NCBI GenBank assembly: GCA_028710895.1 | Contig: JAQTTH010000021.1 | Span: 1-64,000 of the forward strand | Source: Paludibacter sp. | Lineage (GTDB): Bacteria; Bacteroidota; Bacteroidia; Bacteroidales; Paludibacteraceae | Length of the DNA: 64,000 nucleotides | Direction of reading: 5' to 3' | Part shown: in pieces, positions 59,668 to 64,000 of the stretch | Numbering within the stretch: the first letter of the stretch is position 1 | How the letters are laid out: every line of letters begins with the position of its first letter | The notes under the pieces: generated by a model | Seen by the model: the letters and a program-made list of their open reading frames with translations, nothing else | Database searches by the model: none | What the model was told of the DNA's origin: nothing | Program-made: the position numbers and the translations under genes

Positions 59668-59741
59668 GGCTGCGTAGCTCAACTGAATAGAGTACCACAC
59701 TACGGATGTGGGGGTTACAGGTTTGAATCCTGTCGCGGTCA
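59668..59741 (+). tRNA. tRNA-Arg (anticodon ACG)
   Basis: A full cloverleaf can be drawn: acceptor GGCTGCG with CGCGGTC (two G-U pairs), D-stem GCTC/GAGT, anticodon stem CCACA/TGTGG around CTACGGA (anticodon ACG), five-base variable loop and T-stem ACAGG/CCTGT. The 3' CCA is not encoded. The D-loop AACTGAATA has A at the usual G19 and the T-loop TTTGAAT has T at the usual C56, so the tertiary 19-56 pair would be A-U. Confidence 0.93.
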
Positions 59742-59756
59742 CTTTTTTAAATAATT

Positions 59757-60859: not shown

Positions 60860-61036
60860 ATGGAAGAATTGGTAGCTAAGATTAAAGGAGAATTTGAAGC
60901 ATTTGCTAAAGATGCAGATTTGCAAACCGAAAAAGGAAACAAAGCAGCAGGTACTCGTGCTCGTAAAGCATCTTTGGATTTGGAGAAATTACTGAAAGAA
61001 TTCAGAAAAGTCTCATTGAGTGAATCGAAGAAATAA
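60860..61036 (+). CDS. histone H1-like DNA-binding protein
   Basis: This 58-aa frame starts MEELVAKIKGEFEAFAKDAD and contains the diagnostic stretch KGNKAAGTRARKASLDLEKL and LKEFRKVSL. That is the pattern of the small histone H1-like (Hc1-type) proteins of Bacteroidota, which coat DNA as abundant basic helical proteins. It has its own promoter, an AAAGAAATG start context and a strong terminator, as expected for a highly expressed single gene. Confidence 0.85.
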   Translation: MEELVAKIKGEFEAFAKDADLQTEKGNKAAGTRARKASLDLEKLLKEFRKVSLSESKK

Positions 61037-61351: not shown

Positions 61352-61702
61352 TTATTTCCGTTTCCTTCTTTTCTTCCGATAATTTTTGACTGATTTAGAT
61401 TTTGCATCTGTTTTTAAATCGAAATAATCAAACCAACTACGAGCCCACCTTACGTTGTTATTTGTTATGAAATAATGGGATCTGCAATTCAAATTCCAAC
61501 TCCCTATTGAAGGTGTCAACGAAACGCTATCACCATCAAAACTAAGTTTCCATCCATTCTTTGATATTGGAGTTACAACCTCATTTCCACAACCACACAC
61601 GCATTTGTGTATGGCTGTGCAAAATGTAATAGAAACATATAATATCCCTTCTTCAATTTCATCAGGAATATATTCTACAAATCTATGTGTTAGTGTCATC
61701 AT
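61352..61702 (-). CDS. DUF6527-family protein, ubiquitin-like operon component
   Basis: The 116-aa product matches DUF6527: HKCVCGCGNEVVTPIS with three cysteines in a metal-site pattern, WKLSFDGDSVSLTPSIGSW, CRSHYFI, and a very basic C-terminal tail. Such proteins are typically encoded next to ThiF/E1 and multiubiquitin genes; a role as peptidase or processing factor for the ubiquitin-like protein is plausible but is inference here. The start overlaps the E1 gene by 20 nt, so it is translationally coupled. A second Met directly follows the first. Confidence 0.85.
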   Translation of the reverse strand: MMTLTHRFVEYIPDEIEEGILYVSITFCTAIHKCVCGCGNEVVTPISKNGWKLSFDGDSVSLTPSIGSWNLNCRSHYFITNNNVRWARSWFDYFDLKTDAKSKSVKNYRKKRRKRK

Positions 61703-62858
61703 TAGTTAATTGAGAAACATTAATCGAATAACTTGTATTATGCTCTTGCTTCAAATCTTGATAAAAGCCAGATAGCTTTTTCCATTTAATGACTGCTAAA
61801 ACTGCATTCAGAGAATTCAGATCTGCAATTTGAATATTCGTAGCATATTCATTATTTACATCATCTCCACAAGAAATTCGACTCGCTAAATGATCATTTT
61901 TATCTTTAGTTCCTGTTGTAACACGTAAAGTTCCAACTAAACAATCATCAACTGTATTCACTCCAAGTCCAACATCAAAAAATGGTATTTCGTGAGATAA
62001 TAGAAAATCAATTATTGTTTTCTTTATGGCCTCCTTATCAATTGCCAGAAACACATAATTAGCACCTGCAATCTCAGAGATATTGAATTCGTCAATATAA
62101 TAAGGATGCGATATTATATGTTTGTGCATATTAGAATAGCCTGATTTATAATAATCTGTTTTGTTATGAAGCATATCTAGTTCATCGATTGACGCAGCAC
62201 CCGGCGAACGAAATGCATTATGCACTAGAAATTTATCTCCATCGTACAAATGAATTTCTGAAACAGGAGTTTTCGCCACTAAATCCAGAATATATGCACC
62301 AGTTCCACCTAGCCCAATAATTACAATTTTCTGACCTTCAAATTTTTCGCTGATCAAATTAATATTTGCTCTGCTTGAATTGGTGTCAATGTATTGAAAA
62401 ACGGATTCTTCTTCAGAATCAATGATTGGTTTAAATGTTTTTGCCGTAGCAGTATTATCTATTGCCCTTGCTTGGGCAGAAATCATTTCTTCATATCTGG
62501 TTACTTTTTTATAGTAATCAGGATAACCTTCATTTGGTTTGTTGGAAAATGAATGGTCAACAACGATACCATTACCAAAATTTTGAATCCCTGTAGTGTG
62601 TTGGATTCCAGTCATCTTTTTCCCATCCTTTTCACATGGGTGTTCACCAATGAAGTGTATAACATGGTTATCTGGGCTAACGACCCTTGATCCACTCATA
62701 GTTAATGTTGAAACTAATGTTCCGAACTTAACCTCTATTGAAGAGTTTACGTAAGGTATATGGTGGATAAGTAAATATCCACCTTTTACCTCAATTTCGT
62801 AACCTTCATCCCTGAGTTGCTTCAAATCAGGACTACGAACGATTAGTTGCTGTGACAT
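61683..62858 (-). CDS. E2-like (DUF6791) / ThiF-type E1 fusion
   Basis: The 391-aa product has two parts. Residues 1 to about 160 match DUF6791 (IHFIGEHPCEKDG; VVDHSFSNKP; YPDYYKKVTRYEEMI), thought to be an E2-like domain; C75 in EHPC is a candidate but unproved acceptor residue. Residues about 170-360 form the ThiF/E1 adenylation fold: the nucleotide loop VIIGLGGTGAYIL, LYDGDKFLVHNAFR and the acidic loop FFDVGLG. The protein should adenylate the C-terminus of the ubiquitin-like partner and may pass it to the E2-like domain in cis. The start overlaps the multiubiquitin gene by 26 nt. Confidence 0.88.
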   Translation of the reverse strand: MSQQLIVRSPDLKQLRDEGYEIEVKGGYLLIHHIPYVNSSIEVKFGTLVSTLTMSGSRVVSPDNHVIHFIGEHPCEKDGKKMTGIQHTTGIQNFGNGIVVDHSFSNKPNEGYPDYYKKVTRYEEMISAQARAIDNTATAKTFKPIIDSEEESVFQYIDTNSSRANINLISEKFEGQKIVIIGLGGTGAYILDLVAKTPVSEIHLYDGDKFLVHNAFRSPGAASIDELDMLHNKTDYYKSGYSNMHKHIISHPYYIDEFNISEIAGANYVFLAIDKEAIKKTIIDFLLSHEIPFFDVGLGVNTVDDCLVGTLRVTTGTKDKNDHLASRISCGDDVNNEYATNIQIADLNSLNAVLAVIKWKKLSGFYQDLKQEHNTSYSINVSQLTNDDTNT

Positions 62859-63318
62859 TGAATACCATTTGATTTTTTACAAACACAACATCTCCTTTTA
62901 CCATTGAATTTTCTTCATTTTGTTTTGGTCCATTGGCGTAAGTTACCGTATAAACAGTAGCTTCATTTTCTACAGCATTCGGGAATGCAAGTTTTACAAC
63001 CTCTTCATAACTGATTTTCCTTTCATTCCATTCTTTTGGTCGCCCATTTACAATAATAGTGATTGGCTTAAACTCATCCACATGAGCCGAATAAAATTTT
63101 TCAATTCCCGGTCTTGCCAAATCAATTTTTGTATCATCCATAATTGGTTCATCCTCCCATGGACGTTTTATCGCCAAAAATAGTTTATCACTTTGAGGAA
63201 TATTCCCCAATTGTCTTACTTGAGCACCTGTAATGTACTGTTGCTCCCATTTGTAATTTTTCTCATTAATAATGAGATGAAGAACGTGGTCTTCGTTGTT
63301 CTGGTAATCTTGTTTCAT
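62833..63318 (-). CDS. multiubiquitin-domain protein (two ubiquitin-like folds)
   Basis: The 161-aa product has two beta-grasp domains, about residues 11-82 (VLHLIINEKNYKWEQQYITG in part; KFYSAHVDE) and 83-161 (ITIIVNGRPKEWNERKISYE in part; VFVKNQMVFNVTATNRS). Both start with the beta-hairpin and helix of ubiquitin, as in the multiubiquitin family. The C-terminus ends TNRS and not GG, so conjugation would use the native tail or need trimming. It is the first gene of a three-gene operon and the likely substrate of the E1/E2-like enzyme. Confidence 0.88.
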   Translation of the reverse strand: MKQDYQNNEDHVLHLIINEKNYKWEQQYITGAQVRQLGNIPQSDKLFLAIKRPWEDEPIMDDTKIDLARPGIEKFYSAHVDEFKPITIIVNGRPKEWNERKISYEEVVKLAFPNAVENEATVYTVTYANGPKQNEENSMVKGDVVFVKNQMVFNVTATNRS

Positions 63319-63358
63319 ACCTACGAATTTAAATTTTAAATTTTTCTCAACTTTAGCC

Positions 63359-63387
63359 TTGAAATTTTAGCTAAAATGTTACTTTTG
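63359..63387 (+). promoter_or_regulatory. promoter of the sigma-factor gene
   Basis: The -7 box TACTTTTG (63380-63387) matches TAnnTTTG and TTG (63359-63361) lies 18 bp upstream. The transcript would begin near 63394. Confidence 0.6.
63364..63377. promoter_or_regulatory. palindrome in the sigma-factor promoter spacer
   Basis: ATTTTAGCTAAAAT is a perfect 14-bp palindrome lying between the TTG (63359-63361) and the -7 box (63380-63387), so a bound protein would block the sigma-factor promoter. Confidence 0.5.
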
Positions 63388-63407
63388 TAGCAACATTTCA
63401 TAATAAC

Positions 63408-63437
63408 TACTAAAAGCGTTACCACGGTTTTTAGTAG
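63408..63437 (+). promoter_or_regulatory. inverted repeat in the sigma-factor leader
   Basis: CTACTAAAA (63408-63416) pairs with TTTTAGTAG (63429-63437) around 12 nt. The right arm ends one base before the ATG at 63439, so in RNA the hairpin would cover the ribosome-binding region; in DNA it may be an operator. Confidence 0.55.
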
Positions 63438-63438
63438 T

Positions 63439-64000
63439 ATGTATAGAAAGCAGATGCAAAGCTGGTTACAATTTAAAGACAAACCCACAATTGAGCTTAT
63501 TAAGCAGATTCAAAAAAGAACAGATCCAAAGGAAATTTCTTTTTCAGAGTCTGCTTTTCATGCATTTGTATTTAGATTTGAAGGGGATGTCACAAAAAAA
63601 GCAGAGGTAATTTGTGGAAGCTGGGGTTTCAATATAGAGGAAACAATTGAAATTGTACAAAATGTATTTAAAAAGTTTTGGAGATATCCAAAGTTCAATG
63701 TTGAAAAGAAAAAAGAACAGAATCTTGATAAAGCTGTTATATTATATCTATATGGTATCGCTAGAAATGAACTAACAGATTATTTCAATAAAAAAAATGG
63801 ATTAAAGCTATCCCCATATGATGGTAGTGAGGAATTAGTCTATGATTTGCCCGAAATGCCTATTCTTGATGATCAAGCAGATTACAATGTAGATGTTCAG
63901 CTTTCCAAAATAAGATTAAAAGCAATTAAGGCCGCATTAGAAACACTCTCAGAAAAACACAAAATTATTTATTTGACTTATAGTTCATACGAATATTCAG
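63439..64000 (+). CDS. RNA polymerase sigma-70/ECF-like factor (partial, cut by window end)
   Basis: The frame starts MYRKQMQSWLQFKDKPTIEL and is open to the edge (187 codons). FVFRFEGDVTKKAEVICGSWG, IEIVQNVFKKFWRYPKFN and LYGIARNELTDYFNKKNG resemble sigma region 2 with its helix that binds core polymerase and the -10 element; an acidic linker and the beginning of region 4 (ALETLSEKHKIIYLTY) follow. It is divergent from the multiubiquitin operon, 120 bp away, with palindromes in the gap. It could control that operon; this is inference. The C-terminus lies outside the window. Confidence 0.75.
   Translation, partial: MYRKQMQSWLQFKDKPTIELIKQIQKRTDPKEISFSESAFHAFVFRFEGDVTKKAEVICGSWGFNIEETIEIVQNVFKKFWRYPKFNVEKKKEQNLDKAVILYLYGIARNELTDYFNKKNGLKLSPYDGSEELVYDLPEMPILDDQADYNVDVQLSKIRLKAIKAALETLSEKHKIIYLTYSSYEYS

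Follow-up and report, generated by a model that had tools for sequence, protein, structure and literature searches.

An ECF-like sigma factor and a candidate anti-sigma partner face a ubiquitin-like operon in Paludibacter and recur beside other immune operons

The window analysed here is a stretch of 64,000 nucleotides from a Paludibacter sp. genome (contig JAQTTH010000021.1; G000:C36:1-64000 in our numbering); the contig ends at 69903, 5.9 kb beyond the window. At the end of this stretch, three overlapping genes that encode a double ubiquitin-like (Ubl) protein, an E1-like fusion and a small metal-binding-type protein are faced by a divergent gene for a sigma factor resembling the extracytoplasmic function (ECF) kind, which is itself overlapped by the gene of a partner protein. 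The features are the following.

61352..61702, minus strand: DUF6527 metal-binding-type protein, 116 aa (Pfam PF20137, 4.1e-24)
61683..62858, minus strand: fusion of DUF6791 and a ThiF/E1-like adenylation domain, 391 aa (Pfam PF20590, 5.1e-61; ThiF, 2.9e-9)
62833..63318, minus strand: double ubiquitin-like Multi_ubiq protein, 161 aa (Pfam PF14452, 9.9e-30, in two stretches)
63380..63387, plus strand: candidate -7 promoter match TACTTTTG (pattern TAnnTTTG), pointing at the sigma gene
63406..63438, minus strand: conserved inverted-repeat-like element between the sigma gene and the Ubl operon (nhmmer model of 8 gaps)
63439..64000, plus strand: ECF-like sigma factor, truncated where the window stops (complete at C36:63439-64140; 233 aa; TIGR02937, 2.6e-9)
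C36:64121-64909: sigma partner, 262 aa, overlapping the sigma gene by 20 bp, with a sigma-partner N-terminus and a DarG-C-terminal-type domain

All three operon proteins exceed the Pfam cut-offs, and their genes overlap by 20 bp (DUF6527 and DUF6791-ThiF) and by 26 bp (DUF6791-ThiF and Ubl). The original prediction of three overlapping reverse genes encoding a double Ubl, an E1 fusion and a DUF6527 protein was confirmed both in position and by these matches. The neighbourhood had also been described as known from comparative genomics, and it is: judged from its sequence, the operon is almost certainly a member of a kind of Ubl/E1 operon predicted in 2006 as type 6e (PMC1779556). As set out in that paper's passages on the type, 6e operons combine a tandem Ubl, an E1-like protein with a JAB or other N-terminal domain and a metal-binding protein. 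The window operon resembles them in its tandem Ubl, E1-like domain, non-JAB N-terminal domain and small metal-binding protein. Multi_ubiq is matched in two stretches, where 6e proteins have one to three ubiquitin-like repeats, and DUF6791 is fused to ThiF with no JAB match in Pfam. We read DUF6791 as the domain X that takes the place of JAB in PMC1779556. DUF6527 is probably the 'Y' protein of these operons. The 6e signature given there is C-x3-C-x35-38-H-x2-C; the window protein departs from it slightly in spacing and in the order of Cys and His, with C34-x3-C38-x34-C73-x2-H76. C34, C36, C38, C73 and H76 are invariant in the eight sequences compared. The optional inactive E2/RWD-like gene or fusion of 6e operons gave no Pfam match in the three operon proteins. 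Type 6e differs in that its table row in PMC1779556 lists no Bacteroidetes, and the term 'sigma factor' is absent from the main text of that paper. The idea that the operon itself is new was rejected in view of the 2006 prediction, a PDB Ubl structure and plasmid copies, in which the same three genes were named and annotated side by side by NCBI.

The sigma gene had been predicted 120 bp from the Ubl gene on the other strand. The position stands for the ATG at 63439, and the true start is likely M6 (63454), where most homologues begin. We assign the protein to the ECF type, which has regions 2 and 4 of sigma-70, on a TIGR02937 match over residues 39-225 that stays below the curated cut-off; the sigma factor of a relative (locus L034) passes this model with 60.7 bits. 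The original prediction was confined to the window, which ends inside the sigma gene, and it therefore missed the partner gene, the DNA element in the gap and the occurrence of the sigma module beside operons of other kinds.

Relatives of the operon were surveyed in 80 loci out of at least 537, taken from named records (75 after removal of identical E1 proteins). A divergent sigma-like gene faces the operon in 12 of the 80, and four further sigma-facing loci are the window itself, G219, G262 and G588. In all 12, the sigma gene is divergent and adjoins the Ubl gene, tiny open reading frames aside. An M78 peptidase gene follows in 11 (L066 has none); the order sigma, partner-sized gene, M78 peptidase is found in 10, and in L052 the last two are fused. 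The L087 sigma was called by BLAST clustering with those of L052 and L066 (no NCBIfam match), and the L090 match is weak (0.002). A weak sigma match in G255 was discarded, as it looks like an ordinary ECF sigma factor and has different following genes. In an order sample of 295 genomes, DUF6791 occurs in eight, the sigma factor in seven and both in five, where the two are always adjacent (5/5); the overlap expected by chance is 0.19 (hypergeometric 6e-8, relatedness ignored). The pairing of sigma factor and operon, for which absence of the sigma gene from other loci had been named as refuting, was upheld by this recurrence. We consider it very probable that the sigma factor controls the operon.

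Other controllers lie beside the operon elsewhere in the 80 loci. XRE and M78 genes are paired in 24 of them (20 divergent, four in the same direction), M78 genes are present without a recognised XRE gene in 13 (eight divergent, five in the same direction), an XRE gene without M78 in two, and a WYL gene in two. The profiles found no controller in the remaining 27 loci, some of which have little upstream sequence. Among these 27, L064 and L091 have a LexA-like gene just upstream (LexA-type controllers respond to DNA damage), and L054 and L059 have a kinase/STAS-like pair recognised by weak matches. For known members of these types of controller, a response to DNA damage has been described (PMC13373217).

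The usual module in relatives consists of the sigma factor, a CapP-like M78 peptidase and a small partner, which in the main family has 99-140 aa. The peptidase of G027 matches the PADLOC capP model at 7.6e-66, and at E 0.01 nothing but CapP is matched in the PDB. In a phylum sample, 339 of 395 genomes have at least one sigma match at 1e-6; strong matches (E <= 7.5e-33) are confined to 12 genomes besides G000, the next value being 1.3e-13, where ordinary ECF factors begin. Seven of the 12 strong loci face an immune operon: one of DUF6791 type, one of Bub type, one Bil-like, and four cyclic oligonucleotide-based antiphage signalling system (CBASS) operons.

G588: DUF6791-type operon faced by the sigma module
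G480: Bub-type operon (Multi_ubiq and ThiF by Pfam; JAB part and label by eye)
G440: Bil-like operon (BilD, 4.8e-15; Prok-JAB, 7.9e-6)
G476, G516, G382 and G492: CBASS operons (cyclase models, 1.4e-116 or better)

G419 yielded no small-partner call. The module also faces, in G027, a CBASS operon that has genes for effector, cyclase and E2 and, elsewhere, a Pycsar operon on a Chryseobacterium plasmid (L163), and on a Segatella plasmid it adjoins genes without informative names. As relatives of the sigma gene adjoin these other antiviral gene sets, a shared and apparently undescribed immunity switch is suggested. The sigma module is well supported as a genomic unit, and its mechanism is predicted. 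The Paludibacter genome has a second, peptidase-type sigma module (L101, C2:99-1906), whose facing operon is cut off by the contig end. In three related genomes (L143, L144 and L146) the module has no recognised immune operon and lies near the same ribosome-maturation-type genes (by eye), where it is possibly a fixed stress switch.

At the window locus, no M78 peptidase was found by tblastn in C36:58000-69903. The N-terminus of the window partner aligns with the small partner family over 57 columns (hhalign, E 6.1e-8); the G219 partner (264 aa) has the same build, and a profile of both also matches the small partners. The C-termini of the two match the DarG model NF048014 (window 2.5e-9, G219 5.1e-11). 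In the AF2 model of the window partner (pLDDT 75, with residues 1-8 and 41-72 below 50), the top PDB fold match of the C-terminal domain is the DarTG chain 7yk3_B (E 6.3e-3, probability 1.00, TM 0.56 by target), none being found at 0.001. Proteins that match the window partner C-terminus are encoded directly after a sigma-like gene in G394 (3e-49) and G343 (1e-35) as well; these two are called DarG-type through their match to the window protein, with no NCBIfam hit and N-termini judged by eye, and their loci span only 3.6 kb, so that a distant peptidase is possible. In G566 the gene before a short DarG-type protein is HsdS-like (by eye) and is no sigma gene, and most other matches to the window partner C-terminus lie in frames of 568-748 aa.

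A motif, [AV][AV]RxG, is present near the C-terminus of 21 of the 22 listed main-family partners encoded beside a peptidase, and the other one (Segatella) has a near-variant; the list left out the partners of G419 and L082. The motif is absent from all four DarG-type partners, the window's included. Its presence in the main family beside the peptidase and its absence from the DarG-type proteins fit a peptidase target site. There is a good probability that the partner is an anti-sigma factor; that the DarG-type domain is the point of release is a tentative suggestion. Two partner-linked proteins were observed in passing. L052 (2892-4526), adjoining a sigma-like gene, encodes a 544 aa protein in which (by eye) an M78 peptidase and a macrodomain are joined to a partner-like N-terminus, and in G343 (L151 390-1223) a caspase-like protein (PF00656, 3.4e-14) is encoded just after the pair of sigma factor and DarG-type partner.

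The gap between sigma gene and operon contains two candidate DNA signals. In 15 of 19 loci, the Bacteroidota -7 promoter pattern TAnnTTTG is matched no more than 130 bp from the start of the sigma gene, compared with 11% in shuffles. The conserved element reads, on the operon strand, roughly TAACGG-N14-16-T[GA]AA, with deviations; in the window its right arm runs on, on that strand, into TAACGC-N15-TGAA, and G027, G588, L069 and L078 have, by eye, a second copy of the pattern nearer the operon. The nhmmer model was seeded on 8 of 18 gaps, the window among them. In 1.48 Mb of fetched DNA, its matches with E <0.01 were confined to gaps upstream of a module sigma gene, the non-seed gaps being those of G480 and of the C2 copy in G000; in a four-locus scan, the gap of the Pycsar plasmid also matched (E 0.0011). 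The window's own genome has a single site of the element at up to 3 mismatches.

The active-site residues of the E1-like protein are conserved. Conservation was scored in 68 E1 proteins (the window and 67 of 81 distinct relatives, 14 being dropped by hand as near-duplicates or for extended starts). The adenylation residues D208, N214, R217, K233 and D274 are present in 68/68, and C75 of DUF6791, within an HPC motif, is Cys in 65/68. Column 330 of the E1 domain, Cys in the window, is Cys in 6/68 only; the only other Cys-rich columns are 272 (55/68, adjoining D274) and 363 (20/68). The AF2 model of the DUF6791-ThiF protein has a mean pLDDT of 91.8, and in a fold search of the PDB it comes closest to chains of Citrobacter BubCD (6.6e-13), BubCD being the nearest solved E1 by sequence as well as by fold. 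Only E1-type structures were found among the best 50 matches of the full model. DUF6791 appears in it as a helix and four strands followed by the HPC motif, an arrangement that presumably resembles E2 enzymes. In G588 (L135 10742-11942), the DUF6791 and E1 halves lie in two overlapping frames of 155 and 251 aa, explicable as a genuine split, as a frameshift or as an error in the sequence.

As originally noted, the window Ubl ends in TNRS and not in GG. A C-terminal Ser is found in all 78 distinct Ubls recognised (those of L042 and L058 are cut by contig ends, and in some loci, for example L045, L077 and L096-L098, no Ubl was recognised). The multi-ubiquitin protein of PDB 9cd2 matches the window Ubl at 8.5e-23, in an alignment that reaches the last residue, and also ends in Ser (TDKS); the C-terminal residue of the Bub-type Ubl of G480 is Ala. 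The Ubl and E1 genes overlap by 26 bp in 73 of 78 cases, and the Ser is encoded by TCA (36), TCG (24), TCT (14), TCC (3) or AGC (1). That the Ser is a mere by-product of the overlap was rejected, since the third base of its codon varies, which by the reading frame would change an E1 residue, and the Ser is kept. Activation of a non-glycine C-terminus is known from MccB, which acts on Asn. Given the conserved residues and the Ser at the end of all the Ubls, it is reasonable to predict that a non-glycine C-terminus is activated and then transferred directly to C75. The invariant Ser, together with the lack of a conserved Cys at the usual place in the E1, predicts an unusual chemistry.

On balance, we think it fairly probable that the Ubl operon is accessory and is controlled by a sigma factor of its own, which an inhibitor keeps in check. 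The sigma factor and its partner would be made from the TAnnTTTG promoter by RNA polymerase carrying the housekeeping sigma factor, and the partner N-terminus would keep the sigma factor inactive. Upon removal of the partner by a signal, the sigma factor would guide RNA polymerase to the 63406-63438 element, switching on the Ubl, DUF6791-E1 and DUF6527 genes. In most sigma-bearing relatives the trigger would be the CapP-like M78 peptidase, cutting the partner near [AV][AV]RxG and expected, by analogy with CapP, to respond to single-stranded DNA. At the window locus a DarG-C-terminal-type domain would replace that half, and release might occur by ligand binding or targeted degradation. The E1 domain would then adenylate the C-terminal Ser of the Ubl, and the Ubl would be handed on, through C75 of DUF6791, to whichever target DUF6527 selects.

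Several observations weigh against this model, and some of them are shared with the alternatives considered next. The window sigma protein is under the curated cut-offs (36.9 vs 42.9 bits for TIGR02937; E 0.1 for Pfam Sigma70_r2), which qualifies the original description of it as sigma-70/ECF-like. The element model detects only 2 of the 10 non-seed gaps below E 0.01 and misses 8 of all 18 (G516, E 4.1). The partners of L084, L087 and L090 are peptidase-linked and lack the motif, as does that of L066 in the same second sigma group. In five of the 12 strong phylum loci no immune operon was recognised by eye. Finally, the E2-likeness that had been claimed for the N-terminal domain is without sequence support: profile searches with DUF6791 against PDB sequences, a CBASS E2 and two E2-like candidates detected no similarity.

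The alternative that survives best, although we judge it unlikely, is that the partner binds the palindromic element and represses transcription as CapH-type proteins do, the sigma-like gene being auxiliary or autoregulatory and induction being derepression. The PADLOC capH model does match the small partner (2e-18), and XRE and M78 pairs occupy the same divergent place in 20 of the 80 loci. The element is partly palindromic, which would suit a promoter and a dimeric repressor alike; its inverted-repeat score beats 40 shuffles in 5 of the 18 gaps, the window not being one of them. However, the capH model also matches true HTH/XRE proteins, so that the name is unspecific. Pfam found no helix-turn-helix (HTH) domain in the small partner of L034 or in the DarG-type partners of the window and G219, hhalign detected no profile similarity of the partner to the one XRE relative compared, and the gene that adjoins the operon is that of the sigma factor, not that of the partner.

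It is quite improbable that the sigma gene is a mere neighbour in a defence island and that the Ubl operon has its own housekeeping promoter. In support of this, the sigma gene is absent from 68 of the 80 operon relatives, which have other controllers or none found, and ECF genes are common, as the 339 matching phylum genomes illustrate. A chance neighbour is nevertheless hard to reconcile with a divergent sigma gene adjoining the Ubl gene in 12/12 loci, the order sigma-partner-M78 in 10/12, adjacency in each of the five genomes shared in the order sample, the same DNA element in several gaps, and the recurrence of the module beside other immune operons. That the DarG-type partner of the window is an antitoxin neutralising a toxic sigma factor or Ubl operon, as its C-terminal match to DarG might suggest, is very improbable, since it gave no macrodomain hit, no DarT-like match was found among the nine contig proteins scanned (sigma factor and partner included), and its N-terminus is common to peptidase-linked partners.

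The accessory character of the locus was also examined. The operon genes have a GC content of 0.34-0.35 and the sigma and partner genes of 0.30, compared with 0.40 for the window, and a tRNA-Arg gene lies at 59668-59742. The AT-rich stretch beyond a tRNA reported originally is real; insertion at the tRNA is unsupported, as a search of the contig for exact repeats of 12-22 bases from the tRNA 3' end found none. Phage carriage was likewise discarded, a phage collection giving no match to the E1. A 58 aa histone H1-like Hc1 protein (PF07432, 5.9e-23) is encoded at 60860-61036, between the tRNA gene and the operon. Near the Ubl operon in 14 loci lies a subtilase gene (PF00082, 6.3e-17 for L030, 2251-4740; BLAST clustering), which in 11 of the 14 stands beside a companion of about 366-414 aa, an unexplained pair. 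Two 92,608 bp contigs with an identical E1 in the same place (L033 and L035) were deposited as Pontibacter mangrovi and Amaricoccus solimangrovi, probably through contamination of one assembly.

Returning to the sigma switch, we lean slightly towards regarding it as a fourth class of immune-operon controllers, taking the following together: an ECF-type sigma factor and a small anti-sigma factor would be swapped as a unit and act by positive activation, the C-terminal modules of the anti-sigma factor would be interchangeable (a CapP-type-cut [AV][AV]RxG site or a DarG-C-terminal-type sensing domain), and the cassette would move between Ubl, Bub-type, Bil-like, CBASS and Pycsar operons. Literature searches of partial coverage found no report that CBASS, Bub, Bil or polyUbl operons are under the control of a sigma factor; given this coverage and the match of the PADLOC capH model to the small partner, earlier notice of the family is possible. 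If the model is correct, positive sigma-based control joins the repressor-based DNA-damage controllers (CapW, CapH+CapP, CapK+CapS), and a Ubl operon of which little is understood is tied to accepted antiphage systems by a switch common to both. Induction of the sigma switch by DNA damage or phage would then mean that the Ubl system is induced likewise.

Compared with known systems, the window partner resembles DarTG in the C-terminal domain of DarG, its top fold match, and differs from it in being fused to a sigma-partner N-terminus, with no macrodomain and no DarT found. The operon resembles Bub systems, as its nearest solved E1 is Citrobacter BubCD and 9cd2 is a close relative of its Ubl. 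Unlike Bub, as defined from PDB titles, it has no separate BubB-like gene and has DUF6791 in place of the D part, and its relatives lack a conserved Cys at E1 column 330. Bub operons are often near CapW or CapH+CapP controllers (219/544, in the survey data of PMC13373217). As in CapH+CapP, relatives of the window locus carry a CapP-kind M78 peptidase in divergent position beside immune operons. The difference is that a sigma factor and a partner without detected HTH take the place of the HTH repressor, and that no peptidase was found at the window locus itself. The closest parallels in design are CRISPR-linked. CalpL cuts the anti-sigma factor CalpT and frees CalpS, according to the part of PMC12751052 on this system, and Csx29 cuts Csx30, an inhibitor of CASP-sigma, according to the corresponding part of PMC10028731. 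These systems likewise unite a protease, an inhibitor and an ECF-type sigma factor in one immune module. In the module described here, where cleavage is predicted from gene order and motif, an M78 peptidase or a DarG-type domain stands in for the CRISPR-activated Lon or CHAT protease of those systems, and the operon targeted by the sigma factor would itself be the immune system.

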